Shown here piece after piece: positions 2 through 12,818 of a stretch of DNA of 12,818 bases. The stretch's first letter is position 1. The number at the start of each line of letters is the position of its first letter. Made by a program: the position numbers and the translations under genes. A model generated the notes under the pieces. It did no database searches and was not told the origin of the DNA. It saw only the letters and a list, made by a program, of their open reading frames with translations. Source of the stretch: Melioribacteraceae bacterium (lineage in GTDB: Bacteria > Bacteroidota > Ignavibacteria > Ignavibacteriales > Melioribacteraceae); NCBI GenBank assembly GCA_026987055.1, contig JALSNL010000227.1, forward strand, positions 1-12,818, in the 5' to 3' direction.

Positions 2-760
2 TTAGCACATGCTACTTCGATTGAAGATATAAAAAATTATAAATTTCCTGACCCTTTTGCAGAAGGAAGGTTTGATAACGCTGAAGCTGCAATTGAAAAG
101 TATGGTAAAGACTATGCTATAGTTGCAGATTTGGAAACGGTTTTTTTTGAAACCTCTTGGTATTTAGTTGGTTTGGAAAAACTTCTGCTTGATATGGCAA
201 TGGGCGAAGATTACGTTCCCGTATTGTTTGATAAAGTAATGGAAGTAAACGTTGCTGTTGGCAAAAAACTAATTGAAATGGGTGCCGATATTCTTTGGGC
301 CGGAGATGATTTCGGTTCCCAAAACGGAATGCTGATTGCTCCTGAAATGTGGCGTCATTATTTTAAACCACGAATTAAAGAAATGTTTCAAGAATTTAGA
401 AGTGTAAACTCCAATGTAAAACTTGCTTGGCATAGTTGCGGTTCTATTGTTCCGATAATTCCCGACTTTATCGAAGTTGGTTTGGATATCCTAAACCCCA
501 TACAACCTTTGGCAACAGGAATGACACCCGAATATCTTAAAGGAAACTTCGGGAATGAATTATGTTTTTTCGGTGGGATAGATATTCAAGATCTTTTACC
601 AAACTCAACACCCGAAGAAATTAAAACGGAAGTAAAAAGACGCATTAACGTTCTTGGTGATAATGGCGGATACATAATTGCTCCGGCTCATAATATTCAG
701 GATGATACTTCCGTTGAAAATATTTTAGCTTTTTTTGAAGCTGCAAAAAATCCTTATTAA
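2..760 (+). CDS. URO-D superfamily protein, 3' part (5' end outside window)
   Basis: The reading frame is open from base 2 with no start codon needed, so the gene begins upstream; a TTG at 131 is internal. The visible 252 residues are the C-terminal two thirds of a uroporphyrinogen decarboxylase-fold (TIM barrel) protein. Family-like landmarks are WHSCGS (His at 431-433, Cys at 437-439), LDILNPIQP, FFGGIDIQDLLP and a closing GGYIIAPAHNIQDD segment (His at 689-691). The HxC pair resembles the zinc site of MtaA/MtbA-type methyltransferases, but the usual later Cys is absent and a His sits in that part of the protein. This is unlike HemE and fits the functionally diverse URO-D-like group found in catabolic clusters. 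It is followed 57 bp later by lutC, so co-transcription is possible. The substrate is unknown. URO-D fold membership is confident; methyltransferase activity is inference. Confidence 0.85.
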   Translation, partial: LAHATSIEDIKNYKFPDPFAEGRFDNAEAAIEKYGKDYAIVADLETVFFETSWYLVGLEKLLLDMAMGEDYVPVLFDKVMEVNVAVGKKLIEMGADILWAGDDFGSQNGMLIAPEMWRHYFKPRIKEMFQEFRSVNSNVKLAWHSCGSIVPIIPDFIEVGLDILNPIQPLATGMTPEYLKGNFGNELCFFGGIDIQDLLPNSTPEEIKTEVKRRINVLGDNGGYIIAPAHNIQDDTSVENILAFFEAAKNPY

Positions 761-817: not shown

Positions 818-1339
818 ATGATTAATAAATTTATTCAAGTAGCTCAAACAGTGGAAACAAATGTTAATGTAATTCCAGAAACGGAAGCCGCATTAAATGA
901 AATTCTAAACTCTATTATAAACGATGAAGGGAAAATAGTTTTATCAGAATTTCGGTTTACTCAAAAGAAATTACTAAATAAATTTATAAACACTAACAAT
1001 AATATAATTTCACATCCAACCGATAACGAACTTGCTAAAGCCAAATACGGAATTACCGATGCCTTTGCCGGTATTGCCGAAACCGGTTCTGTGTGTGTAT
1101 TAAACGATGATTCAATGAGCGGAAGTTACAGCCTTTTTGTAAACACTCATATTGCAATTATAAATTCAAAAGATATTGTTGCAAGACCGAGAAATATTTT
1201 TCAATCGGAACCTTACAAATCAATTGCATTAAAAAAAGATTTTGTTTTTATCAGCGGTTCAAGTGCTACTGCAGATATGGGACCTTTGGTTCGCGGAGTT
1301 CACGGTCCGGCTAAATTGCACGTTATAATTTTGGAATAA
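818..1339 (+). CDS. lutC: LutC-type lactate utilization protein (LUD domain)
   Basis: This 173-residue protein is a single LUD domain. Its C-terminal half carries the family signature: a GITDAFAGIAETGSV segment, then the ending GSSATADMGPLVRGVHGPAKLHVIILE in broken form (SATAD near residue 149, GVHGP near 160, HVIILE at the C-terminus). LutC belongs to the LutABC iron-sulfur complex that oxidises L-lactate to pyruvate in the cytoplasm. LutC proteins are usually 200-240 residues, so this is a short version with a reduced N-terminus. The ATG at 818 has no clear Shine-Dalgarno site. The LutB homologue starts 9 bp after the stop, so the two are almost certainly co-transcribed. Family assignment is strong. 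The substrate being L-lactate is inferred from homology and from the nearby rhamnulokinase. Confidence 0.88.
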   Translation: MINKFIQVAQTVETNVNVIPETEAALNEILNSIINDEGKIVLSEFRFTQKKLLNKFINTNNNIISHPTDNELAKAKYGITDAFAGIAETGSVCVLNDDSMSGSYSLFVNTHIAIINSKDIVARPRNIFQSEPYKSIALKKDFVFISGSSATADMGPLVRGVHGPAKLHVIILE

Positions 1340-1348
1340 TTTTTTATT

Positions 1349-3613
1349 ATGGAAAAAGTTAATGCCATAAAAAATATTCACCCGAGAGAAGTTGCAGATA
1401 AAAGTGTGCAAGGGAATTTGCAAAAAGCAATTGATATGTCTTTGCAAATTGAAAGCAAAGCCGTAAGAAAAAATACACAATCGTTTAACACCAACAGATA
1501 CAAAGCAAAAACTAATATAACCGATTATGAAAATCTTAAAGATGAAGTTCGTAAAATTAAAGAAGAAGCAATAAATGATTTACCAAGCTTATTATTGAGA
1601 TTGGAAAATTCAGTTAAAAAAAACGGCGGTACATTCTATTTGGCAAAAGACGCCGATGATGCAAGCAAATATATTACCGGAATTTGTAAACAACATAATG
1701 CGGAATTGGTTGTTAAAGCTAAGTCAATTACATCGGAAGAAATAAAATTAAATGACTATTTGGAAAAAGCCGGAATTGAAATTGCCGAAACCGATTTGGC
1801 GGAATTTATTTTGCAAGTTTCCGGTGAACAACCTTCACACATCGTTGCTCCGGCAATTCACCGCAGCCGGGAAAGAATATCGGAATTATTCAAGGAAAAA
1901 TTTAACTCTAAACTACCACTTGAAACAGGAGAAGATTTAACAAAATTTGCCCGCGATATTTTACGTAATAAGTTTCTAACTGCCGGTGTTGGAATAAGCG
2001 GAGCAAACGTAATAGCAGCAGATACCGGAACGTTACTGCTTGTTGAAAGCGAAGGCAATATTCGTATGGTTACACAAGCACCTTCTGTTCATATTGCTAT
2101 TGCCGGAATTGAAAAAGTAATTCCGCATAGAAAAGATTTATGGAAGTTTTTGGAATTGTTGGCACCAAGTGCAACGGGACAAAATTTAACTTCCTACACA
2201 CATATTATTAAACCTCCTTTAAATATTCCTCCTTTTTCTTTTGACGGAAGAGAAAAGAAAAAACGTGAATTTCATCTTGTGCTAATTGATAACGGCAGAA
2301 CAAAAATGCGGGACGACAATGTTTTCCGTGAAGCTCTTTACTGCATAAGATGCAGTGCTTGTATGAATGTGTGCGCAAATTTTCAAACTGTTGGCGGACA
2401 TGCTTTTGGCGGTGAAACTTATCCCGGTGGAATTGGAGGCAGTTGGGAAGCTTGGACAGGTAATTTAAACAAAGCTCAGTTTAGTGATTTGTGTACCGGT
2501 TGTTCAAGGTGTGTAACAGAATGTCCGGTTCGTATTGATATTCCTTGGCTTAACGAAAATTTAAGAAATCGATTAAACAAAAATAATCACAATAAAATTC
2601 TAACTTCAATTATCAGCGGAGTATTACCTTCTGACAAAGATGATAAAACCGCAACACTTCAAAAACAATTTTTTGCAAATTACTCAACAATTGCGAAGTG
2701 GGGAAGTAAGTTCCCGAATTTGTTTAATAAATTATCTGATACAAATATTGCAAAATCTTTTGCCGAGAAATTTTTATCTGTTGATAAACGGAGAAGATTT
2801 CCGAAGTTTACTAACGAAACCTTAGTTAAACAATTTACAAATAAAGTTTATGGTACAAATAAAACCGGAGATAGTAAAAATATTTTGCTTGTAGCGGATT
2901 TGTTTACAAATTATTCAAGACCCCAAGCAGGTATTGCTACAATTGAAGTTCTTAAGCAATTTGGTTTTAATGTTACACTCAGTAAAATCGGTAACGAAGG
3001 CAGGGATTCGCTTTCGCAAGGATTTCTTAAAACATCGAAAAAACGTGCAGTCGAAACAGCTAAGTATCTGTTGAAATATATTTATCAAGGTTACGATGTT
3101 ATTGTTATTGAACCTTCCGTATTAGCTCTTTTCAGAAAAGATTATAAACATTTTATAAGTGAAGAAATGTTTGAACGTCTAAAACTAAAATGTTTTGAAC
3201 CCTTAGAATATTTACAAAAAAATGTTAAAGAAAATAATCTTACTCTAAAAAATTATTTTAAGACTGATGAAATTAAAAACCAACCGAAAATATTTTTTCA
3301 CAGTCATTGTCAACAAAGATCAATTTATACTGAAGAACCAACTATAAAATTACTTAGTGAGCTGGGTTTTATTGTTGAAAGTTCAAATGTTGAATGCTGC
3401 GGAATGGCTGGAAGCTTTGGTTATAAAAAGCAATATTATGATTTAAGTGTAGAAGTCGGAAAAGAATTAATCGGGCAGATTGAATCATCAAAAACAAAAA
3501 ATGAAGAAATGATTGTTCTTGCAAGCGGTGTTTCGTGTCATGAGCAAATGGGTGATTTGGGAAAAACCGATACAATTCATCCTATGGAATTATTAGTTAA
3601 ATATTTAAGATAG
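1349..3613 (+). CDS. lutB: LutB-like iron-sulfur protein fused to a C-terminal CCG (LutA/FAD-oxidase-type) domain
   Basis: This 754-residue protein is much longer than normal LutB (about 470). Residues 60-310 form a LUD domain (GISGANVIAADTGTLLLVE near 214-233). Two 4Fe-4S motifs follow: C332-C335-C338-C342 and C382-C385-C388-C392-Pro. A LutB-like tail runs to about 490. Residues 510-754 are an extra cysteine-rich electron-transfer domain with HSHCQQR (C654), ECCGMAGSFG (C683, C684) and GVSCHEQ (C730). That domain looks most like the C-terminal end of GlcD/YdiJ-type FAD-linked oxidases with Fe-S domains. At EPSV (588-591) a Val sits where I recall a Cys in those enzymes. The fused domain may replace LutA, which has no separate gene here. 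The ATG at 1349 lies 9 bp after lutC. The rhamnulokinase begins 8 bp after the stop. Predicted role: oxidation of L-lactate (or a related hydroxy acid) to pyruvate. Confidence 0.85.
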   Translation: MEKVNAIKNIHPREVADKSVQGNLQKAIDMSLQIESKAVRKNTQSFNTNRYKAKTNITDYENLKDEVRKIKEEAINDLPSLLLRLENSVKKNGGTFYLAKDADDASKYITGICKQHNAELVVKAKSITSEEIKLNDYLEKAGIEIAETDLAEFILQVSGEQPSHIVAPAIHRSRERISELFKEKFNSKLPLETGEDLTKFARDILRNKFLTAGVGISGANVIAADTGTLLLVESEGNIRMVTQAPSVHIAIAGIEKVIPHRKDLWKFLELLAPSATGQNLTSYTHIIKPPLNIPPFSFDGREKKKREFHLVLIDNGRTKMRDDNVFREALYCIRCSACMNVCANFQTVGGHAFGGETYPGGIGGSWEAWTGNLNKAQFSDLCTGCSRCVTECPVRIDIPWLNENLRNRLNKNNHNKILTSIISGVLPSDKDDKTATLQKQFFANYSTIAKWGSKFPNLFNKLSDTNIAKSFAEKFLSVDKRRRFPKFTNETLVKQFTNKVYGTNKTGDSKNILLVADLFTNYSRPQAGIATIEVLKQFGFNVTLSKIGNEGRDSLSQGFLKTSKKRAVETAKYLLKYIYQGYDVIVIEPSVLALFRKDYKHFISEEMFERLKLKCFEPLEYLQKNVKENNLTLKNYFKTDEIKNQPKIFFHSHCQQRSIYTEEPTIKLLSELGFIVESSNVECCGMAGSFGYKKQYYDLSVEVGKELIGQIESSKTKNEEMIVLASGVSCHEQMGDLGKTDTIHPMELLVKYLR

Positions 3614-3621
3614 AGGGAAAG

Positions 3622-5097
3622 TTGAAATCTCATTTTATTGCTGTCGATTTTGGTGCCGGGAGCGGACGTGTTATTCTAGGTATATTGAATAACGATAAGT
3701 TAACTCTAAATGAAGTTCACCGATTTGAAAATAAAATGATTGAAAAGAACAATCATCTTTATTGGGATTTGGATTATTTGTTTAACGAACTGATTACCGG
3801 ACTAAGCAAGATTGACGAAAAGATAAAGAAAGAAATTTTAAGTATTGGTATTGATACTTGGGGTGTTGATTATGCTTTTATTGATGAAGATGGTGAAATT
3901 ATTGATAATCCTTTTGCATACAGAGATTCCAGAACCAACGGAATAATGAAGGAAGTTTTTAATATCATTCCTAAAAGAAAAATTTATGAACATACCGGAA
4001 TACAGTTTTTACAATTCAATACAATTTTTCAATTATATAGTGAACTTAAATTCAATAAAGAGCAAATAGAGAAAGCGAAATCATTTTTGTTTATGCCTGA
4101 TGTATTCAACTATTTTTTAACAGGAAAACAATTATCCGAATATACAATAGCATCAACCTCGCAATTGATAAATGCGGAAAGTAAAAATTGGGACGAAGAA
4201 ATAATTAAAGATTTACAATTGCCAATTCAAATATTCCCGCAAATTGTACAACCGGGTAAAATAATCGGTTTATTAAAAGAAGATATACAAAAGAGTACAG
4301 GTTTATCAAACGTTGATATTATTGCGGTTGGTGCACATGATACTGCAAGTGCTGTAGCTGCAGTTCCTGCAATTGAAAATAGCAATTGGGCTTATCTAAG
4401 TTCAGGTACTTGGTCTTTGCTTGGGGTTGAAGTTAAAGAACCGGTGATAAATGATATATCGTTTAACGATACTTTTACAAATGAAGGCGGCATTGAAGGA
4501 ACGATAAGATATTTGAAAAACACAATGGGTTTATGGATTTTTGAACAAACAATTAAGAGCTGGGAGAAAGTCGGTTATAAAAAAGATTACAATCAATTGT
4601 TCAAACAGGCTGCCGAAACACAACCTTTTAGATCAATAATTAATCCGGATGATATAACTTTTCTTAATCCGAACGACATGCCTGCAGCAATAAAAAATTA
4701 TTGTGAAAGAACAAATCAAAAAGTACCCGTAAGCAAAGGTGAATTTGTAAGATGTATTCTGGAAAGTCTGGCATTAAAATATAAATTCATTCTTGAAAAA
4801 ATAAATGAACAATTAAAAGAGCCTGTTAAAGTTTTACATATAATTGGCGGCGGTTCGCAAAATGAAATGCTCAATCAATTTACTGCTGATGCTACCGGTA
4901 TTAAAGTTGTTGCCGGTCCGGTAGAAGCTACGGCAATTGGAAATATTTTAATGCAGGCAATTGCAAAAAATAAAATAAAAAATCTGGCGGAAGGGAGAAA
5001 TATTGTCGGCAATTCGTTTAGGTTAAAAATATTTCAACCACTGAAAACAAAGAATTGGGAAAAAGTTTATAAAAGTGTCAAAATATTATTTGTTTAA
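3622..5097 (+). CDS. rhaB: Rhamnulokinase-type FGGY carbohydrate kinase
   Basis: This 491-residue, full-length FGGY kinase has RhaB-like signatures. These are an N-terminal phosphate loop VDFGAGSGRVI (D9), GIDTWGVDYAFID (77-88), VGAHDTASAV (D240, the expected catalytic base), the adenosine-site segments YLSSGTWSLLGVE (258-270) and IIGGGSQNEMLNQFTADATG (407-426), and a C-terminal NSFRLKIFQP. RhaB phosphorylates L-rhamnulose to L-rhamnulose-1-phosphate, which an aldolase splits into DHAP and L-lactaldehyde. The start is TTG at 3622, because no ATG or GTG precedes the phosphate loop in frame; an AGAGGG Shine-Dalgarno-like site (3612-3617) lies just upstream and overlaps the lutB stop. Tight spacing to lutB suggests one operon. 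No isomerase or aldolase is in the window, so a related ketose such as fuculose cannot be excluded as substrate. Confidence 0.86.
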   Translation: MKSHFIAVDFGAGSGRVILGILNNDKLTLNEVHRFENKMIEKNNHLYWDLDYLFNELITGLSKIDEKIKKEILSIGIDTWGVDYAFIDEDGEIIDNPFAYRDSRTNGIMKEVFNIIPKRKIYEHTGIQFLQFNTIFQLYSELKFNKEQIEKAKSFLFMPDVFNYFLTGKQLSEYTIASTSQLINAESKNWDEEIIKDLQLPIQIFPQIVQPGKIIGLLKEDIQKSTGLSNVDIIAVGAHDTASAVAAVPAIENSNWAYLSSGTWSLLGVEVKEPVINDISFNDTFTNEGGIEGTIRYLKNTMGLWIFEQTIKSWEKVGYKKDYNQLFKQAAETQPFRSIINPDDITFLNPNDMPAAIKNYCERTNQKVPVSKGEFVRCILESLALKYKFILEKINEQLKEPVKVLHIIGGGSQNEMLNQFTADATGIKVVAGPVEATAIGNILMQAIAKNKIKNLAEGRNIVGNSFRLKIFQPLKTKNWEKVYKSVKILFV

Positions 5098-5471: not shown

Positions 5472-7004
5472 ATGGATTATAAAAAAGTAAGAATGAGTAA
5501 AGAAAAAGTAAAATTAAGAATTGAACCGCTTGGGAAAGAACTATTAGTAAATAAAGATACACCTCTAAAAGATATTGTCTTTCAATATGGAATTGAATTT
5601 CCTTGTGGTGGTGAAGGTTATTGCGGCGGGTGTAAAGTTAAACTGCTGAAAGGTGAAGTTAAAAATCCTGAAAAACATGCCGAACTAAATTACAAACTTG
5701 GACTTGAAGAAAATTACCGTCTTGCATGTAAAAGCAAAATATGCGAAGATACTGTTGTAGAAATTCCTCAATTCAATTCAATTGTTTTAACAGATAATTC
5801 CAAATATTTTTTTACACCCAAAACCGGCTATGGAATAGCAATAGATTTAGGCACAACAACCATTGTAGCTCAACTTGTTGATTTATCCAACGGTCATGTT
5901 ATTGGCGTGCAAACCGCAAGAAATCCTCAAACGCAATTTGGTTCCGATATCATGTCAAGAGTTTTACATGGAATGAATAGTCAAGGGAAAGAAGAATCTC
6001 AAAAACTTATTAGAGATGAACTGGATAATATGGTTCAAATTCTAATTAAAGAAAAAAATGTTGAAATTGAAAAAATAATTATCGTTGGTAACACGGTAAT
6101 GCATCATTTATTTTGTGGTTTTGATGTTACACCGTTGGCTAGTTATCCTTTTGAAACGGAACATAAAGAAAGTGTTGTCTTTTCTCCCGGTAATTTGGGA
6201 TGGGACTTACCTTCAAAAACTAAAATTATATTTGTCAGACCTATTGCAAGTTTTATCGGTAGTGATATACTTGCAGGTATAGTAGCTTCAGGTATGCACC
6301 AAAAGTGTAATTTTACATCTTTAATAGATTTGGGAACAAACGGAGAAATAGTTGTAGGATGTTGCGATAAAATTTTATGTGCTTCTACTGCCGCCGGTCC
6401 TGCTTTTGAAGGTGCAAATATTCAAATGGGAATGTCTGCAATGTCCGGTGCTATTGCTTCCGTTGATGTTGTTGATAATAAAATTAATTACCATGTAATC
6501 GGAAACCAAGAACCAATCGGAATATGCGGTAGCGGATTAATTGATGCTATTAAAGTTTTTATAGAGCAAGGTATAATTGATTCCGGTGGGGCAATTGTAG
6601 GAAATACTGAAAAACTGATGCTAAGTGAAAATGTTTACATTACTCAAAAAGATATTAGGGAATTTCAATTGGCAAAAGGTGCCATCGCTGCGGGACTTCA
6701 AATATTGGTAAATAAACTTAACAAAAGTATTTCCGATATTACACGTATTTTAATTGCCGGTGGGTTTGGTAATTTTATAAATACAAAAAATATAATAGAT
6801 ATTGGTATGTTAAAAGTAAGAGAAAGAAAAATTAAAAAATTCGGTAACAGTGCATTAATTGGGGCCAAAATGTTTCTTTTTTATGATGATTATTCCTTTA
6901 CCGAAATCATTAATAAAATTGAACATGTTTCTTTAGATGCCGATAAAGATTTTCAAGATATTTTTGTTGATAAAATGTTTTTTACAGAATCTGTACTTTT
7001 GTAG
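5472..7004 (+). CDS. RACo/RamA-like reductive activator of corrinoid proteins (2Fe-2S + ASKHA)
   Basis: The 510-residue protein starts with a plant-type 2Fe-2S ferredoxin domain, with cluster ligands C45, C51, C54 and C86 (PCGGEGYCGGC). It continues into the DUF4445/ASKHA ATPase region: GIAIDLGTTT (D125), GNTVMHHLFCG (206-216), SLIDLGTNGEI (D286), GICGSG (350-355) and IAGGFGNF (428-435). Such proteins use ATP to drive low-potential reduction of inactive Co(II) corrinoid to Co(I), keeping corrinoid methyltransferases working. It is compact compared with clostridial RACo of about 630 residues. The ATG at 5472 or the in-frame ATG at 5493 could be the start; neither has a good Shine-Dalgarno site. 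The likely partner is the corrinoid protein at 10645. An IS element now lies between this gene and the rest of the cluster. Family assignment is strong; the partner is inferred from context. Confidence 0.92.
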   Translation: MDYKKVRMSKEKVKLRIEPLGKELLVNKDTPLKDIVFQYGIEFPCGGEGYCGGCKVKLLKGEVKNPEKHAELNYKLGLEENYRLACKSKICEDTVVEIPQFNSIVLTDNSKYFFTPKTGYGIAIDLGTTTIVAQLVDLSNGHVIGVQTARNPQTQFGSDIMSRVLHGMNSQGKEESQKLIRDELDNMVQILIKEKNVEIEKIIIVGNTVMHHLFCGFDVTPLASYPFETEHKESVVFSPGNLGWDLPSKTKIIFVRPIASFIGSDILAGIVASGMHQKCNFTSLIDLGTNGEIVVGCCDKILCASTAAGPAFEGANIQMGMSAMSGAIASVDVVDNKINYHVIGNQEPIGICGSGLIDAIKVFIEQGIIDSGGAIVGNTEKLMLSENVYITQKDIREFQLAKGAIAAGLQILVNKLNKSISDITRILIAGGFGNFINTKNIIDIGMLKVRERKIKKFGNSALIGAKMFLFYDDYSFTEIINKIEHVSLDADKDFQDIFVDKMFFTESVLL

Positions 7005-7073
7005 CGATTGTTGATTTTATAAAAGAAAAATCATAATAATTACATTTCTTATTTAAGTTTCAAATCTAATACC

Positions 7074-7079
7074 CAAAAC
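7074..7079. repeat. Target-site duplication, left copy (CAAAAC)
   Basis: CAAAAC lies immediately outside the left terminal repeat and is repeated exactly at 8300-8305 next to the right terminal repeat. A 6-bp direct duplication fits IS481-family insertion and indicates an intact transposition product with no rearrangement since. Confidence 0.88.
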
Positions 7080-7101
7080 TGTAAAGTTTCACAAGGTTGT
7101 T
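7080..7101 (+). repeat. IS left terminal inverted repeat
   Basis: This 22-bp terminal repeat matches the reverse complement of 8278-8299 at 21 of 22 positions (A versus C at position 4). It sits directly inside the CAAAAC duplication. Confidence 0.92.
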
Positions 7102-7131
7102 GATGCTTTTCTTTTTGGTTTAGGCAAGATA

Positions 7132-7190
7132 AGAGAACTTGGGGTAACGTAAGGAGCCCGTAGGGCGACTGGAGTTACCCCAAGTTCTCT
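7132..7190. repeat. Long hairpin in the IS leader (17-bp perfect stem)
   Basis: The arms AGAGAACTTGGGGTAAC (7132-7148) and its exact reverse complement (7174-7190) enclose a 25-nt interior with its own small stem, GCCC/GGGC (7156-7159 and 7163-7166, loop GTA). It is far more GC-rich than its surroundings. A run of eight A's follows on the + strand, and no T-run follows in either direction, so it is not a standard terminator. It lies 87 bp before the transposase ATG and may limit read-through translation or transcription of the transposase from the host operon. Confidence 0.85.
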
Positions 7191-7277
7191 CGAAAAAAAA
7201 GTTGCCATGTAGAAAAAAAAGCATCCAAATGAAAACTTGTTTATTTAATTTTGCTTCAACTAAAAAGGAAATTAAAT

Positions 7278-8297
7278 ATGAAACAAGTATATCATTCAAA
7301 TGCCGTAACTAATTTACACATTAGAAGTGAAATTAGAAATAGCAATTTGACCAATTTGGAATTAGCAACTAAGTTTAACACCTCTGTTGCAACAATCAGT
7401 AAATGGAAAAATAGAGAAGAGCTTGCTGATAATAGTTCTGCTCCCAAGAAAATAAATTATGCTCTTAATGATATTGAACAGAGTTTGATAACTTCTATAA
7501 GGAAAACCACTTGGCTACCCCTTGACGAAGTTTGGGAAATGATGTTGGAGCAAAAGACAACCATTACTCGTAGCTCTGTGTACAGAACATTTTGTAGAAA
7601 TAACCTAAGCAAAGTACCTCAAGAAAAAAGAGATAAAGCTAAGAAGTTCAAAGAGTATGAACCAGGATATTTACATATGGACGTTACCTATTTACCAAAA
7701 TTTGATGGTGTTAAATATTACCTTTTTGTTGCAATAGACAGAGCAACGAGAACTCTTTATTTTGAAGTATATGATGCTAAAACAAGCGAGAATACTGAAT
7801 CGTTTATGAACAATTGCTTAGAGTATTTTCCCTTTAACATTACTCATGTTCTTACTGATAATGGATTAGAATTTACTAACAGACTCATTAAATCAAAGAA
7901 AGGTAATCTTTGTACTAAACCTTCTAAACTGGATGTTATTTGTGAAGATAACAAAATAGACCACAGACTTACTAAGCCGGCAACACCTAAAACAAACGGG
8001 ATGGTAGAGAGAGTCAATGGAACTATTAAAAATGGAACAATACTTAAAGAAAAATATAAAAACTTAAATGAAATGATTGCTGCATTAAATGTTTTTCTTA
8101 TTCACTATATGTTATACAGAAGGCACGGTGGAGTCAGAAAAGAGCTTAATGTGAAAACTCCTTTTAATGCTTTAGAAAAATGGTATGAATTAAAACCAGA
8201 ACTTTTTAATCAAAATCCTTTGGATTTTAAAACTAAATTATTAACTTTGAAACAACATTATTATACAAAGTTTCGTAAACAACCTTGTGAAACTTGA
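7278..8297 (+). CDS. IS481-type DDE transposase
   Basis: I start this gene at the ATG at 7278, which has AAGGAA (7265-7270) seven bases upstream; an upstream in-frame TTG at 7251 would add nine residues and has no ribosome site. The product is 339 residues. An N-terminal helix-turn-helix (about 20-50, LTNLELATKFNTSVATISKWK) should bind the terminal repeats. An rve-type integrase core follows, with D135 (HMDVTYLP), D194 (LTDNGLEF) and E244 (NGMVERVNGTIK) as the catalytic triad. The C-terminus is rich in aromatic and basic residues. All catalytic residues are present and the frame is intact, so the enzyme is probably functional. It has no role in the surrounding pathway. Confidence 0.93.
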   Translation: MKQVYHSNAVTNLHIRSEIRNSNLTNLELATKFNTSVATISKWKNREELADNSSAPKKINYALNDIEQSLITSIRKTTWLPLDEVWEMMLEQKTTITRSSVYRTFCRNNLSKVPQEKRDKAKKFKEYEPGYLHMDVTYLPKFDGVKYYLFVAIDRATRTLYFEVYDAKTSENTESFMNNCLEYFPFNITHVLTDNGLEFTNRLIKSKKGNLCTKPSKLDVICEDNKIDHRLTKPATPKTNGMVERVNGTIKNGTILKEKYKNLNEMIAALNVFLIHYMLYRRHGGVRKELNVKTPFNALEKWYELKPELFNQNPLDFKTKLLTLKQHYYTKFRKQPCET

Positions 8298-8299
8298 CA
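8278..8299 (-). repeat. IS right terminal inverted repeat
   Basis: Read on the minus strand this matches 7080-7101 at 21 of 22 positions. It overlaps the last codons and the TGA stop of the transposase. Confidence 0.92.
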
Positions 8300-8305
8300 C
8301 AAAAC
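8300..8305. repeat. Target-site duplication, right copy (CAAAAC)
   Basis: This exact copy of 7074-7079 lies immediately outside the right terminal repeat. It is 35 bp upstream of the next gene's likely ATG, so the insertion lies in that gene's leader. Confidence 0.88.
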
Positions 8306-8340
8306 CATAAAAAAAGCTTACCTACAAAATTGGCGTGCAA

Positions 8341-9693
8341 ATGAACATGACCGGGAAAGAATTAATTTTTAAAGTATTTAATAATCAAAAAGTTGATAGA
8401 GTTCCTTGGATACCTTATACGGGAATTCAAGTTGGAAGTTTAAGCGGAGCTACAGCAGAAGACTTGCTTAAAAATGAAAATCTACTTGTAGCAAATTTAT
8501 TAAAAGCCCATAGTTTATACGGACCTGATGGAATGCCAGTCATTTTTGATTTACAACTTGAAGCTGAAATATTAGGTTGTGATTTAATGTGGGCGGAAAA
8601 AGCTCCTCCTTCGGTAAGAACTCATCCGCTGAGTGAAAGAAAAAATATCGATTTGGAATTACCAAAAAAGGAAGACGGACGTTTACCTTTGGTGCTTAAC
8701 GTTATGAAGAAAATGAAGCAAGAGGTTGGTGATACAACTGCACTTTATGGCTTGATATGCGGACCTTTAACATTAGCTTCGCATCTGCGGGGTATGAATC
8801 TTTTTATGGATATGTATGAAGATGAAAATTTTGTACAAGAAATAATAAATTTTTCTACAGATGTGTTTCTTAAAATGGCAGATTTTTACATCGATGCCGG
8901 AATGGATATTATTGCCGCAGTTGATCCAATTGTTTCGCAAATATCTCCGGATTCTTTTACACAATTTTTGCACAAACCATACACGAAAATATTTTCATAT
9001 TTAAAAGAGAAAAATGTATTCAATGGTTTTTTTGTTTGTGGAGATGCTACAAAAAATTTGAAAGTAATGTGCAACACAAAACCAGATAGTATTTCAATTG
9101 ATGAAAACATAGATATTGTTGCAGCAAAAAAAATTACGGATGAACATAATATTGTAATCTCCGGTAATATTCCGTTAACATCCGTTATGTTACTTGGTAC
9201 ACAACAAGACAATCAAAAGTATTCAATTGAACTGATGGAAAAACTTGGAAATAAAAATTTTATTTTGGCACCCGGTTGTGATATGCCTTATGATGTACCG
9301 CAAGAAAATATAGTTGGAATTGCTCAAGCAGTGCAAGATCCAAAAGCAACAAAATTGTTTTTGAAAAATTATGTTAAAGATGAAATAACTTTAGAAGTTG
9401 AATTGCCGGATTATAAAAATTTGGATAAACCTTTAATTGAAGTCTATACAATAGATTCCGCTACATGTGCCGCTTGCGGTTATATGACAATGGCTGCAAT
9501 GGAAATGAAAAATATATTCGGTAATAAAATTGAAGTTAGAGAATACAAAATTACAGAACCGGAAAATATAGTTCGTATAGGGAAATTGGGAATTAAAAAT
9601 TTACCAACCTTAGTAATAAACGGTCAACCAAAGTTTATTTCAATCATTCCTAATAGAACAACACTTAAAAAAGAAATAGAAAATTATTTATAA
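8341..9693 (+). CDS. URO-D/MtaA-type corrinoid methyltransferase fused to a C-terminal thioredoxin-like domain
   Basis: The start is uncertain: GTG 8335, ATG 8341 and ATG 8347 are all in frame, and I choose 8341 (MNMTGKE). The 450-residue product has a URO-D TIM barrel at about 1-345, beginning TGKELIFKVFNNQKVDRVPW and containing GFFVCGDATKN (C233) and LAPGCDMPYDVP (C313). These two Cys match the zinc-binding Cys of MtaA/MtbA methyltransferases, but the His of the usual HxC pair is Phe231. Residues about 362-450 form a thioredoxin-like domain with C376-A-A-C379 and a probable cis-Pro at 422 (NLPTLVINGQP). MtaA-type enzymes move methyl groups between a corrinoid protein and a thiol. The cognate corrinoid protein is likely at 10645. 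The thioredoxin-like domain could supply a thiol acceptor or redox control (inference). The CobW gene starts 8 bp after the stop. The IS lies directly upstream and may have altered expression. Confidence 0.87.
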   Translation: MNMTGKELIFKVFNNQKVDRVPWIPYTGIQVGSLSGATAEDLLKNENLLVANLLKAHSLYGPDGMPVIFDLQLEAEILGCDLMWAEKAPPSVRTHPLSERKNIDLELPKKEDGRLPLVLNVMKKMKQEVGDTTALYGLICGPLTLASHLRGMNLFMDMYEDENFVQEIINFSTDVFLKMADFYIDAGMDIIAAVDPIVSQISPDSFTQFLHKPYTKIFSYLKEKNVFNGFFVCGDATKNLKVMCNTKPDSISIDENIDIVAAKKITDEHNIVISGNIPLTSVMLLGTQQDNQKYSIELMEKLGNKNFILAPGCDMPYDVPQENIVGIAQAVQDPKATKLFLKNYVKDEITLEVELPDYKNLDKPLIEVYTIDSATCAACGYMTMAAMEMKNIFGNKIEVREYKITEPENIVRIGKLGIKNLPTLVINGQPKFISIIPNRTTLKKEIENYL

Positions 9694-9701
9694 ATTTTTT
9701 T

Positions 9702-10643
9702 TTGAAAAGAATTAATTCAAAAATTAAAATATTATTGATAACCGGATTCCTCGGTTCCGGAAAAACCACTTTAATCAACAGACTTATTGATTTTTATAAG
9801 TCAAAAAAAATTGCTTTGATTATAAATGATTTTGGTAAAATTGTTGTTGACGGAACTTTATTACGGAATCAATTTGGTGATCAAAAATCTACTGTTTATG
9901 AAATAGCAAACGGTTCAATTTTTTGTACATGCTTAAGTGCCGAACTTGTTAAATCACTAAACTATTTTATTAATATAAATCCGGAAATAGTAATTATCGA
10001 AACTTCCGGTTTGTCCGATCCTTCAACTTTTCAAAAGATATTAACAGATAATAAACTATATGATTTTTATACTATAGCAAACTCTATATGCACAATCGAT
10101 TCAACAAATGTATTACATCTTTCCAAAAAAATTATTGCCATAGAAAAACAAATTTTATCAAGCAATTTAATTTTAATAAATAAAAGTGATTTAATTAGTG
10201 AAAAAGAATATCAAAAGATTGAAGAGTTTGTTAAATCGAAAAACAAAAATTCAGACATTATAAAATCCGAATATGCAGAGTTTAACTTGGAGCTACTTAA
10301 AAATAAGTCATCTATTAAATTCTTGGATGATGCGGTTACTTGTAATACTGTTTCAACAAGACCAGGCAGTATTTTATTAAAACAAAAGGAAATTACTTTA
10401 ATAGAAATTGAAAAATTTTATACTAAAATTAGTAAGTATCTATTACGTATAAAGGGATTTTTAAAAATAAAAAATGAATCGTATTATATATCCGATAACC
10501 ATAGAAAGTTACAAATTAAAAAATTTAACAAAAATAAAATAACAAAATACGGATTATCGGTTTTATTAAATAAAAACTATATTCCTATAGTAGAAAAAGA
10601 ATGGAATAATTTTGATAATAGTGTAAACAAATTACGAGGTTAA
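9702..10643 (+). CDS. CobW/G3E-family P-loop GTPase
   Basis: This 313-residue G3E GTPase starts at TTG 9702, the only start ahead of the P-loop. Motifs in order: Walker A GFLGSGKTT (15-23), the metal-motif region GSIFCTCLSAEL (C75, C77), a Walker B-like segment VIIETSGLSDP (E100) and the guanine-specificity motif NKSD (160-163). Most CobW/COG0523 proteins have CxCC there; here the third Cys is replaced by Leu78. The C-terminal part is short, AT-rich and Lys-rich with little recognisable similarity. G3E proteins insert or deliver metals or cofactors. Between a methyltransferase and a corrinoid protein, this one could help load cobalamin or zinc, or gate activation as MeaB-like relatives do for mutases. 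It starts 8 bp after the upstream gene and ends 1 bp before the next, so it is in the same operon. Confidence 0.87.
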   Translation: MKRINSKIKILLITGFLGSGKTTLINRLIDFYKSKKIALIINDFGKIVVDGTLLRNQFGDQKSTVYEIANGSIFCTCLSAELVKSLNYFININPEIVIIETSGLSDPSTFQKILTDNKLYDFYTIANSICTIDSTNVLHLSKKIIAIEKQILSSNLILINKSDLISEKEYQKIEEFVKSKNKNSDIIKSEYAEFNLELLKNKSSIKFLDDAVTCNTVSTRPGSILLKQKEITLIEIEKFYTKISKYLLRIKGFLKIKNESYYISDNHRKLQIKKFNKNKITKYGLSVLLNKNYIPIVEKEWNNFDNSVNKLRG

Positions 10644-10644
10644 T

Positions 10645-11310
10645 ATGGATGAACTGTTGCATCAATTAGCAGTTTGCATTGAACGGGGAAAAGTAAATAT
10701 AAATTCACCATTTCCTGCTGATTTAAAGGGTCAAGAAGGTGCAGACGAGCTTACAAAAAAAGCTTTGGATAATGGAATAAAACCTGAGGTTATATTAAAT
10801 GATGCTCTAATGATTGGAATGCGAAAAGTTGGCGATAAATTTGAACAAGGCAAAGCATTTATTCCCGATATGCTTATTTCGGCAAAAGCAATGAACGCTG
10901 CAATGGTTCATCTCAAACCGTTTTTTGAATCGGGGCAAGTTGAACTAAAAGGTGATTTTATTATTGGTACGGTTGCCGGGGATTTACATGATATCGGAAA
11001 GAATATTGTTAAAATGGTTTTAACCGGTGGTGGTTGGAATGTAATAGATTTAGGCTCTGATGTAAAAGCGGAAAAGTTTGTTGAAACATTGAAACAACAT
11101 CCCAAAGCTTTGGTTGGAATGAGTGCTTTACTAACAACAACAATGATGCAAATGGAAGTAACAACCAAAGCTATCAAAGAAATATCGCCCGAAACAAAAG
11201 TGTTTGTTGGAGGAGCTCCCTTATCACAAGAGTTTAGCGATAAAATTGGAGCTGACGGATATTTCCCCGATCCGAATAAGTTTATAAAATATCTGGAAGA
11301 AATTATATAA
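10645..11310 (+). CDS. Stand-alone corrinoid protein (MtaC/MtbC/MetH-like cobalamin-binding)
   Basis: This 221-residue protein has the standard two-domain layout. The N-terminal helical cap (about 1-95, with ALMIGMRKVGDKFEQGKAFIPDMLISAKAM) covers the cobalamin. The Rossmann domain (about 100-221) contains GDLHDIGKNIV, where D113-x-H115-x-x-G118 is the base-off/His-on motif and H115 the expected cobalt ligand. It also has GMSALLTTTM (158-167) and VGGAPLSQEFSDKIGADGY (188-206). Such proteins shuttle a methyl group between a donor-specific methyltransferase and a second methyltransferase. The ATG at 10645 has a GAGGT site (10636-10640) and lies one base after the CobW stop, so the genes are tightly coupled. 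Likely partners are the URO-D/thioredoxin protein, RACo, the activation-domain protein at 11354 and the homocysteine methyltransferase at 12078. Confidence 0.95.
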   Translation: MDELLHQLAVCIERGKVNINSPFPADLKGQEGADELTKKALDNGIKPEVILNDALMIGMRKVGDKFEQGKAFIPDMLISAKAMNAAMVHLKPFFESGQVELKGDFIIGTVAGDLHDIGKNIVKMVLTGGGWNVIDLGSDVKAEKFVETLKQHPKALVGMSALLTTTMMQMEVTTKAIKEISPETKVFVGGAPLSQEFSDKIGADGYFPDPNKFIKYLEEII

Positions 11311-11353
11311 CGGTTTTAAGTATATTTAATTTATTATAAAGTTCTAAAATAAT

Positions 11354-12067
11354 ATGAACAACAAAAATAAATTTCAACAATTTCAATTTTCTCCGAAAGT
11401 TACTTCTTTACAAGTAAATTTGAAAAATATAATTTATCAAACCGGTTACAGTTCTAAATTGGAATTCCCAAATTATGATTTGTTAAAAAGTCTGTTAAAC
11501 GAAATTAAAAATATAATTAAACCTGTTAGTGCTTTTGTTGTTATTCCTAAGGCAAGTTGTAATATTAAAAATAGTAGTCTTGATATTGGTGGCGTTCAAT
11601 TTTATACGGCAGGAATAATTTCCTATCCCTTAAAACAAATATCACGAGCTGTGTTTTTTGTTGCTTCAATCGGAAAAGAATTTGATGAATTTTTAATAGA
11701 GAAAAAAAAAGAGACTGATTCGTTCACGGAATATTTAGTAAACTTAATCGGTTCGGAAATTACAGAGTCCCTTGTTAAATGGACTTATGAAAAAATAATT
11801 GAGTATGCTAAAAAAGAAAATATTAAATGGAGCAATAAATACAGCCCGGGTTACTGCGGTTGGAATGTAAATGAACAAAAAAAAATATTTGGTTTTTTCT
11901 CAAAAAATATTTGTGGTATAACACTTACGGAATCATCATTAATGCTTCCTATAAAATCTGTTAGCGGATTAGTTGCCTTAGGAAAAGATATTACTTGGCA
12001 GGAATATCCTTGTGATATTTGCAAAGTACCGCATTGTTACAAAAATAGAAGAAGTATATTAGTATAA
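11354..12067 (+). CDS. Stand-alone MetH-type B12 reactivation domain protein
   Basis: This 237-residue protein resembles the C-terminal AdoMet-binding activation domain of cobalamin-dependent methionine synthase, but as a separate polypeptide. Key segments are YSPGYCGWNVNEQKKIFGFF (163-182; MetH has a related RPAPGYPACP motif) and GITLTESSLMLPIKSVSGLVALG (188-210). In MetH this domain uses AdoMet and an electron to rescue oxidised Co(II) cobalamin. A C-terminal PCDICKVPHC cluster (C220, C223, C228) is not in E. coli MetH and could bind a metal or Fe-S centre; similar tails occur in other stand-alone members (recall). The gene starts 43 bp after the corrinoid gene, its likely target, and ends 10 bp before the homocysteine methyltransferase. 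No clear Shine-Dalgarno site precedes the ATG. Confidence 0.87.
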   Translation: MNNKNKFQQFQFSPKVTSLQVNLKNIIYQTGYSSKLEFPNYDLLKSLLNEIKNIIKPVSAFVVIPKASCNIKNSSLDIGGVQFYTAGIISYPLKQISRAVFFVASIGKEFDEFLIEKKKETDSFTEYLVNLIGSEITESLVKWTYEKIIEYAKKENIKWSNKYSPGYCGWNVNEQKKIFGFFSKNICGITLTESSLMLPIKSVSGLVALGKDITWQEYPCDICKVPHCYKNRRSILV

Positions 12068-12073
12068 AAGGAG
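12068..12073 (+). promoter_or_regulatory. Shine-Dalgarno site AAGGAG for the homocysteine methyltransferase
   Basis: AAGGAG lies four bases before the ATG at 12078 and is the strongest ribosome site in the window apart from that of the IS transposase. It fixes the start of the last gene. Confidence 0.7.
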
Positions 12074-12077
12074 AATA

Positions 12078-12818
12078 ATGAAGAAGATAACGGAAATGAT
12101 TAAAGAAGGAAAAGTATTACTTTCCGACGGAGCTTGGGGAACCTTTTTACAAGCTGAAGGTCTGAACCAAGGGGAATGTCCTGAATTGTGGAATGTAACT
12201 CATAAAGACGTTGTATTAAAAATTGCAAAAAGTTATATAGATGCCGGCTCCGACATGATTGAAACAAATACTTTCGGTGGAAACAAAGTTAAGCTATCAC
12301 ATTACGGTTTAGCGGAAAGAACTTATGAGTTGAATAAAGCCGGTGCGGAAATTTCAAGAGAAGCAGCCGGAGGTAAGATTGTTCTTGGTTCTATAGGTCC
12401 AACCGGTAAAATATTAATGATGGGTGATATTACCGAAGAAGAATTATACGATGCTTTTACAGAACAAATTAAAGGTTTGCGAGACGGCGGGGTTGATGCA
12501 GTTTGTATAGAAACTTTTTTTGATCTTAAAGAAGCGGAGATAGCTATAAGTGCTGTAAGGGAAAATACGGATTTGGAAGTAATCCTAACATTCTCGTTTG
12601 ATAAAAGTCCGGCAGGTTTTAATACAATGATGGGAGTTTCTCCTAAAGCTTTAATTGAACAATTTGGAAAAGATGTTGATATTATAGGAACAAACTGCAG
12701 TAACGGTTTTGAAGGAATGATTGACATCGTAAAAGAAATGAGAGAAGTAAATAATGAAATTCCTATTCTTGTTCATGCAAATGCTGGTATGCCCGTTTCC
12801 ACAGGCAGAGAAGTTAAT
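12078..12818 (+). CDS. Homocysteine S-methyltransferase domain protein (MetH N-terminal type), 3' end outside window
   Basis: The frame is open from ATG 12078 to the window edge, giving 247 residues with no stop. The sequence matches the start of the homocysteine-binding TIM barrel of MetH: LLSDGAWGTFLQ (14-25), GSDMIETNTFGGNKVKLSHYGL (57-78), VLGSIGPTGK (102-111), CIETFFDLKEAEIAI (143-157) and IGTNCSNGFEGM (C207). C207 is the first of three zinc-ligand Cys; the paired GGCC should lie just beyond the window. The enzyme methylates homocysteine to methionine. Because the corrinoid and activation domains are separate genes just upstream, the full protein is probably shorter than classical MetH, perhaps the homocysteine domain alone or with a pterin domain. 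This is inference until the 3' end is seen. Confidence 0.9.
   Translation, partial: MKKITEMIKEGKVLLSDGAWGTFLQAEGLNQGECPELWNVTHKDVVLKIAKSYIDAGSDMIETNTFGGNKVKLSHYGLAERTYELNKAGAEISREAAGGKIVLGSIGPTGKILMMGDITEEELYDAFTEQIKGLRDGGVDAVCIETFFDLKEAEIAISAVRENTDLEVILTFSFDKSPAGFNTMMGVSPKALIEQFGKDVDIIGTNCSNGFEGMIDIVKEMREVNNEIPILVHANAGMPVSTGREVN

Follow-up and report, generated by a model that had tools for sequence, protein, structure and literature searches.

A modular corrinoid cluster with a stand-alone homocysteine methyltransferase in Melioribacteraceae, and sugar methyl ethers as its probable methyl source

Where does a methyl group come from when a corrinoid system would carry it to homocysteine and no pterin domain is encoded alongside? 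This question is raised by a contig of a Melioribacteraceae bacterium (GenBank assembly GCA_026987055.1, contig JALSNL010000227.1), analysed here over its entire 12,818 bases (the window; the contig ends at position 12818), in which all genes considered run on the forward strand. An original prediction, made from the bare letters, had placed in it a same-strand cluster of six families, namely a RACo-like activator, a URO-D/MtaA-type methyltransferase, a G3E GTPase, a free corrinoid protein, a free MetH activation domain (MetAct) and a homocysteine methyltransferase (HcyMT), and had read it as a disassembled MetH-like system with an unknown methyl donor. The answer we favour, at somewhat better than an even chance, is a modular folate-independent corrinoid system that would demethylate a non-folate donor and pass the methyl group to homocysteine to give methionine. 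The genes around related clusters point to plant or algal sugars as the methyl source. It is about an even call whether sugars lose their ether-bound methyl groups, as polysaccharides are used, through an oxygen-independent corrinoid pathway whose URO-Ds are interchangeable (for 4-O-methylglucuronate, judged by GH115, and for an O-methyl-rhamnose-like sugar, judged by rhamnose genes) and from which the methyl group goes directly to homocysteine without folate.

All six families are present on one strand as open frames with Pfam support, the last of them a PF02574 frame (Table 1), and the prediction was also right that no MtaB, MttB or MtmB is in view among the window frames scanned. Its list of families stands; its description of the cluster missed an insertion sequence (IS) inside it and a second URO-D (URO-D1) at the left edge of the window. 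The inverted repeats of the IS (22 nt, 95%, at 7080-7101 and 8278-8299) flank a transposase between RACo and the URO-D that carries a C-terminal thioredoxin-like domain (URO-D-Trx). In two Calditrichia loci (L006 and L007; loci and genomes are cited by our L and G numbers) RACo and URO-D-Trx are directly adjacent, without an IS. The RACo frame scores over the cut-off for PF00111, PF17651 and PF14574, and is made up of 2Fe-2S, middle and ASKHA domains.

A search for the HcyMT in 395 genomes of the phylum (cut-off E 1e-70) gave 23 positive genomes, the source genome included. In the remaining 22 the matching frame has 294-344 amino acids (aa), too short to also hold a pterin domain; with such stand-alone relatives, the last gene of the window is very probably a stand-alone HcyMT itself, and its reading as a full-length MetH was rejected. 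The cysteine of its GTNC motif is present, and the GGCC motif of its relatives, found in 24/24 full homocysteine-domain frames, would fall past the contig end. Its partners keep their motifs as well, with DLHxIGKN in 14/14 corrinoid proteins, and PGY in 15/15 and a C-terminal CxxCx4C in 14/15 of the MetAct relatives.

The surroundings of the HcyMT, taken at a radius of 5 kb in 21 of the 22 relatives (20 regions and L107; G590 was left out), were identified by phmmer with queries drawn from these same loci; in L167, where the open reading frame (ORF) caller missed the homocysteine-domain frame, its place was taken from the HcyMT search. A corrinoid protein lies within this distance in 13 relatives, MetAct in 14, a URO-D in 12 (that of L156 being a 110-aa fragment) and all three in nine (L153, L154, L157-L162 and L164, with the URO-D on the opposite strand in L161 and L162). 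L165 and L166 have the corrinoid protein and MetAct near the HcyMT without a URO-D. A minimal form, L120 in genome G076, which is outside the 21-relative sample, consists of a corrinoid protein, MetAct, a URO-D of the URO-D1 type and an HcyMT. At the other extreme, L052 of the Anaerolineales has URO-D, URO-D-Trx, a CobW-type GTPase (at a phmmer score of just 44 bits), corrinoid protein, RACo, HcyMT and DUF1638 in a row, which is the gene set of the window minus the free activation domain.

Other methyltransferases occur in related clusters. An MTTB replaces it in L168, beside HcyMT, corrinoid protein and MetAct; an MtaB follows the GTPase in the L007 cluster; and in L017 an MTTB lies about 4.4 kb from URO-D-Trx on the other strand. 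Because related clusters carry MtaB or MTTB, the donor enzyme looks interchangeable. The four genes of L168 (7587-12034) share one strand and are likely a betaine- or amine-fed version of the system. The HcyMT of L107 is surrounded by polysaccharide genes (GH78-type, sulfatase and apiosidase-type).

The case for a donor other than folate comes from the relatives. In 25 of 25 genomes with this HcyMT or with a URO-D1-type URO-D, exactly two PF00809 genes score over the cut-off: the first is of dihydropteroate-synthase size (278-409 aa) and the second is of MetH type (more than 1150 aa in 20 genomes, 611-776 aa in four, cut by a contig end in one), and in G013 the homocysteine domain lies within the same 1234-aa frame as the MetH-type pterin domain. 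No relative thus holds a PF00809 partner beyond these two kinds of gene. No pterin domain was found in the window frames scanned, no folate methyltransferase (MT-II) in the window and no third PF00809 gene in the 25 relatives; MtrH/MtgA-type folate methyltransferases, which are a different family that PF00809 does not cover, were not searched. With a MetH-type gene already in these genomes and no PF00809 subunit in the split cluster, the cluster suggests a second route to methionine, probably with a non-folate donor. A homocysteine-methylating corrinoid system in separate parts that recur together, with a non-folate donor, is therefore what the 25 relatives agree with, as far as the families searched go. 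To call it a disassembled MetH, as was first done, is too strong: MetH is kept alongside in most relatives, and MtgC/MtbC-type models give the corrinoid protein a better score than MetH does. A second MetH or MetE, whose presence had been asked about, is thereby found in the relatives as the MetH-type gene; PF01717 matched in three of the 25 (frames of 341-386 aa). The source genome (2.35 Mb, 458 contigs, 68.6% complete) gave a single PF00809 frame of 284 aa and no PF01717 match. In three genomes of one genus (G446, G646 and G752) the MetH-type pterin frames are only 611-637 aa long, versus about 1230 aa, and a Neomarinimicrobiota genome (G113, L108) has a standalone homocysteine-domain frame and a 267-aa pterin frame, with no MetH and no PF01717/MetE match; the standalone HcyMT is possibly the only methionine synthase of G113, or else the genome is incomplete.

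What the donor might be is suggested by glycoside hydrolases. GH115 enzymes release (4-O-methyl)glucuronate, a methyl-ether sugar, from xylan; hardwood xylan commonly bears 4-O-methylglucuronate side groups, and pectin and algal polymers contain O-methyl sugars. A survey of 97 genomes (the source genome and 96 relatives) found 13 GH115 genes in 12 of them, and every one of the 13 regions was inspected. On the same strand, 3' of GH115, the corrinoid gene is second or third in 10/13 and a URO-D of the L159 type lies within three genes in 10/13, one or the other in 11/13, and an HcyMT is found downstream in 8/13; the 11 linked loci come from three families (f1, f2 and f3) and, like all the GH115 loci, share ancestry and are not independent. 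In one of them, L186, the contig runs out beyond the corrinoid gene. The clusters of L155, L158 and L159 come after both GH115 and GH43 genes, and UxuA, the mannonate dehydratase of the glucuronate pathway, is near the clusters in L153, L158, L164, L186, L189 and L191. The GH115 cluster is also present in a cultivated organism, Melioribacter roseus P3M-2 (G008; L159). Given the adjacency of GH115, GH43, UxuA and rhamnose genes to the clusters, a sugar methyl ether is the probable donor, and the donor that was first left blank can be narrowed to this class. In each of the two GH115 clusters aligned, one URO-D has a His-x-Asp metal site and the other His-Cys-Cys; by the argument made in the available text of PMC10418091, carboxylates favour oxygen ligands, and His-x-Asp is thus an O-type pattern. 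The GH115-linked URO-D type, represented by L159:8987-10018 of M. roseus, belongs to a crowded family, 7962 of 8000 scored candidates matching at E 1e-60 or better.

In the window itself the sugar genes are those of rhamnose. URO-D1, whose metal site reads His-x-Cys ... Ala-Pro-Ala-His (that is His-Cys-His; His-Asp-His in L120), shares its strand with the rhamnulokinase RhaB, which ties the locus to rhamnose breakdown. It is 80% identical to a URO-D of G025 (L119) that is next to RhaT and near a GH106 alpha-L-rhamnosidase; its relatives at 45-46% identity are in the L120 operon with corrinoid protein, MetAct and HcyMT, and in G079 (L121, 46%), directly after GH78; and a more distant relative in G630 (L128) adjoins the L-rhamnose mutarotase RhaM. 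In a sample of the phylum the type was present in 3/395 genomes, the source genome included. URO-D1 is likely the donor-side enzyme. The original prediction had set a URO-D-type enzyme where a methyl donor or acceptor enzyme could act; the likely donor-side URO-D at 2-760 lies outside the 5472..12818 piece to which it referred. Because rhamnose genes stand beside URO-D1 and its relatives, an O-methylated rhamnose-like sugar is our leading guess for the window's donor, a tentative one that falls short of an even chance.

The other URO-D of the window is of a different kind. URO-D-Trx is closest, at 25% identity, to MtaA, the methylcobalamin:coenzyme M methyltransferase (PDB 4ay7), from which it differs by its extra thioredoxin-like domain and by a metal site that reads Phe-Cys-Cys, with the two cysteines kept and the phenylalanine aligned with the MtaA histidine. 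The odd metal-site residues of the original prediction are thereby located, at the histidine before the first conserved cysteine of the fused URO-D. The thioredoxin-like domain gave weak profile matches (PF13192 in part of the relatives), and a fold search gave no match to it among the matches listed, that part having been barely tested. A G3E GTPase relative begins right after URO-D-Trx in 58/80 loci, and the anchor frame was recovered in 78/82. The ORF caller, a simple one, mispredicts high-G+C loci (e.g., L020), and contig ends truncate many loci, which makes the neighbour counts for URO-D-Trx lower bounds. URO-D-Trx as part of every such system was considered and set aside, as it was not seen with the queries used in the L120 and L153-L166 clusters; and since standalone homocysteine-domain frames occur in only some of the 22 genomes chosen for URO-D-Trx (source included), homocysteine is not its universal partner. 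URO-D-Trx and the GTPase are probably a semi-independent module, with URO-D-Trx a putative thiol-side methyltransferase. The pair is a widespread module in its own right (L004-L085), with the metal-site histidine of MtaA changed to phenylalanine, and a radical SAM family recurs near it in ten loci (e.g., L020:12283-13269). In a Spirochaetota sample URO-D-Trx was present in 4/296 genomes, the centre included.

A scheme can be drawn from these parts, with substrate and reaction inferred from neighbourhood, motif and fold. The donor-side URO-D (2-760 in the window) would transfer the methyl group from a sugar methyl ether to the free corrinoid protein in its Co(I) state, and the free HcyMT would take it from methyl-Co(III), giving methionine. 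Cobalt oxidized to Co(II) would be re-reduced by RACo and/or the free activation domain. For the GH115-type relatives this would mean 4-O-methyl-D-glucuronate, released from xylan, as the donor and glucuronate as the product that enters the UxuA pathway; for the window type it would mean an O-methylated rhamnose-like sugar as the donor and rhamnose as the product taken up by RhaB.

Several observations weigh against this scheme. RACo is near only one of the 21 HcyMT relatives (L167) and so does not regularly belong to the system in this phylum, and five of the 21 regions (L107, L163, L169, L170 and L172, of which L169 is cut by a contig end) have no corrinoid protein, MetAct or URO-D within 5 kb. 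URO-D-Trx was found at E 1e-60 in only 2/97 genomes, one being the source genome, and the incompleteness of the source genome means that absences there carry little meaning. Within the window, 4.7 kb and three other genes separate URO-D1 from the genes from 5472 onward. The link with GH115 has its exceptions in a cluster without an HcyMT (L191), a lone URO-D directly after GH115 (L192) and two of the 13 GH115 genes without a cluster (L193 and the second G008 copy, L195). Relatives of URO-D1 also occur away from rhamnose genes, beside a PfkB kinase and a permease in G646 and beside GH42 in G076, and for weaker matches in G065 and G025 (second copy) no rhamnose gene was recognised nearby. Finally, the non-folate donor is argued from the PF00809 search, which leaves MtrH/MtgA-type folate enzymes unsearched.

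Four other explanations were considered. It is unlikely, yet worth weighing, that URO-D-Trx and the G3E GTPase form the acceptor side of a pathway of their own, with sulfide or their own thioredoxin cysteine as acceptor to give methanethiol, and that the HcyMT is a separate neighbour; the pair is constant in the 58/80 loci while corrinoid protein, RACo and donor enzymes vary, and an HcyMT lies within 5 kb in only 2/81 other URO-D-Trx loci (L019 and L052), to which must be opposed the single same-strand array of six genes in the window (IS aside) and in L052. Rather less probable is salvage of methyl-sulfur or methyl-selenium compounds, as for the type 1 mlp clusters, where URO-Ds would demethylate thiols or selenols onto the corrinoid and homocysteine would dispose of the methyl group. 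The likeness of URO-D-Trx to an S-methyltransferase, MtaA, its two retained site cysteines and its CxxC domain speak for such salvage, as do the His-Cys-Cys URO-D of the GH115 clusters and the recycling of methyl groups into methionine proposed in the available text of PMC10418091. The URO-Ds of the window are Phe-Cys-Cys and His-Cys-His, however, carbohydrate genes are often the neighbours in relatives, and apart from the methyltransferase itself no gene annotated for selenium or sulfur was seen in the window.

A split methionine synthase working on methyl-folate, through a pterin subunit from another locus (the arrangement of Phaeobacter and Ruegeria) or an MtrH/MtgA-type enzyme, is slightly more doubtful again. 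The layout of homocysteine and corrinoid subunits does match the enzyme of P. inhibens as far as the text at hand describes it (PMC5764234), and RACo may correspond to its RamA-type activator, but the pterin subunit there is PF00809, and the 25 relatives have only dihydropteroate-synthase-sized and MetH-type genes of that family (MtrH/MtgA-type enzymes were not searched), while the source genome, though incomplete, gave its one 284-aa frame. Least credible to us is that methanol, methylamines or glycine betaine is the donor and the sugar genes lie nearby on a different account, such as methanol from sugar methyl esters. The MtaB of L007, the MTTB of L168 and L017 and the esterase-type genes inside two GH115 clusters are what it has in its favour; on the other side, the GH115 clusters hold URO-Ds and no MTTB match (MTTB was queried, MtaB was not), and GH115 acts on a methyl-ether sugar.

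Set beside known systems, the proposed route to methionine from sugar methyl ethers would have close cousins. By the features tested, the cluster would work like a demethylation-coupled split methionine synthase and is not MetH, a PF00809-bearing split enzyme or a type 1 mlp cluster. MetH carries all four domains (homocysteine, pterin, B12 and activation) on a single chain, whereas the window has separate genes. The available accounts describe the split methionine synthase of P. inhibens as three genes with RamA-like and DUF1638 proteins (PMC5764234) and MtgBCDE of R. pomeroyi as a system whose corrinoid protein has a second role in demethylating glycine betaine (PMC12478193). From these accounts, the window shares with both a free homocysteine domain and a free corrinoid protein (12078-12818 and 10645-11310) and, as proposed, the link between demethylation and methionine; its RACo may correspond to their RamA-type activator. 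Both have a free pterin subunit, however, and the window none (PF00809); the donor enzyme of R. pomeroyi is of the MTTB family, whereas the window has URO-Ds; and the window is set apart by its free MetH activation domain and sugar-gene neighbours, and its relatives by mostly keeping MetH too. No MTTB-family donor enzyme was found among the window frames scanned (L168 has one), nor was DUF1638 (L052 has one), and the corrinoid protein scores 179.8 bits versus the NCBIfam MtgC cut-off of 370, and is also below that for MtbC, which separates it from glycine betaine MtgB/MtgC.

Type 1 mlp clusters, in the portion of the account by Kountz and Balskus at hand (PMC10418091), have at least two MtaA-like proteins, a corrinoid protein and a Ram protein in the same direction and at most 2 kb apart, mostly with His-Cys-Cys sites. 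The window resembles them in that its URO-Ds of MtaA type share one strand with a corrinoid protein and a Ram/RACE activator, with no folate methylase found in the window, and in the methyl recycling to methionine suggested there; it differs in having an HcyMT, and carbohydrate genes in place of a selenium/sulfur context, and neither the thioredoxin fusion nor the G3E GTPase is described for such clusters in that portion. Membership was rejected on spacing (RACo begins only at 5472, against an end of URO-D1 at 760, and one URO-D is left without URO-D1) and on metal sites, Phe-Cys-Cys in URO-D-Trx and His-Cys-His in URO-D1 rather than His-Cys-Cys. MesA-MesD, described in the text seen as MetE-related enzymes of folate-independent methionine synthesis, with MesA-C probably drawing on corrinoid proteins (PMC7857596), are of the Meth_synt_2 (PF01717) family, and the PF02574 enzyme of the window is not a member. 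Another parallel is a cytochrome P450 that oxidatively demethylates 6-O-methyl-D-galactose and makes formaldehyde (available text of PMC10033563). It likewise removes a sugar methyl ether during polysaccharide use, whereas the proposed route is corrinoid-based and would keep the methyl group. The P450 reaction was the one sugar demethylation found in the open-licence literature searched, where neither methylated sugars nor 4-O-methylglucuronate came up as substrates of a corrinoid- or cobalamin-dependent demethylation, judged by title and abstract start. Split methionine synthases are already known, and a sugar-methyl donor would be the new part.

If true, the corrinoid route would explain the anaerobic use of O-methyl sugars and tie the supply of methionine to the degradation of biomass. 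It would also provide a very large group of URO-D proteins with a function. The idea is directly testable, as the cultivated M. roseus carries the cluster.

Table 1. Genes and elements of the 12,818-base window, with the matches that identify them
Feature	Position	Strand	Evidence and remarks
URO-D family methyltransferase (URO-D1)	2..760	+	PF01208 1.7e-26; 5' end cut by contig start
LUD-domain protein, LutC-like	818..1339	+	PF02589 2.2e-16
LUD + 4Fe-4S protein, LutB/LldF/LdhH-like	1349..3613	+	PF02589 3.2e-41, Fer4 families; LdhH 3.6e-136, under curated cut-off
Rhamnulokinase RhaB	3622..5097	+	TIGR02627 563 bits, cut-off 528
RACo-type corrinoid reductive activator, 2Fe-2S domain	5472..7004	+	PF14574 (RACo_C_ter) 6.1e-65, PF17651 1e-45, Fer2 1.2e-7
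Insertion sequence, transposase 7251-8297	7080..8299	+	rve 2.3e-13; PHROG transposase; 22-nt inverted repeats
URO-D (MtaA-like barrel) + C-terminal thioredoxin-like CxxC domain (URO-D-Trx)	8335..9693	+	URO-D 1.3e-55; start possibly 8341 or 8347
G3E GTPase, CobW family	9702..10643	+	PF02492 (cobW) 1.2e-37
Free corrinoid protein, cap + B12 domain, GDLHDIGKN	10645..11310	+	PF02607 8.1e-19, PF02310 5.5e-24
Free MetH-type activation domain (MetAct), KYSPGY, C-terminal CxxCx4C	11354..12067	+	PF02965 (Met_synt_B12) 2.3e-9
Homocysteine methyltransferase (HcyMT), SDGAWGT type	12078..12818	+	PF02574, 190.6 bits; 3' end cut by contig end

Among known RNA elements, no Rfam family matched the window at gathering scores. 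The two LUD-domain proteins (818-3613) are beside the rhamnulokinase and perhaps serve lactate made from rhamnose; any part of theirs in the methyl-transfer system is one that we infer.

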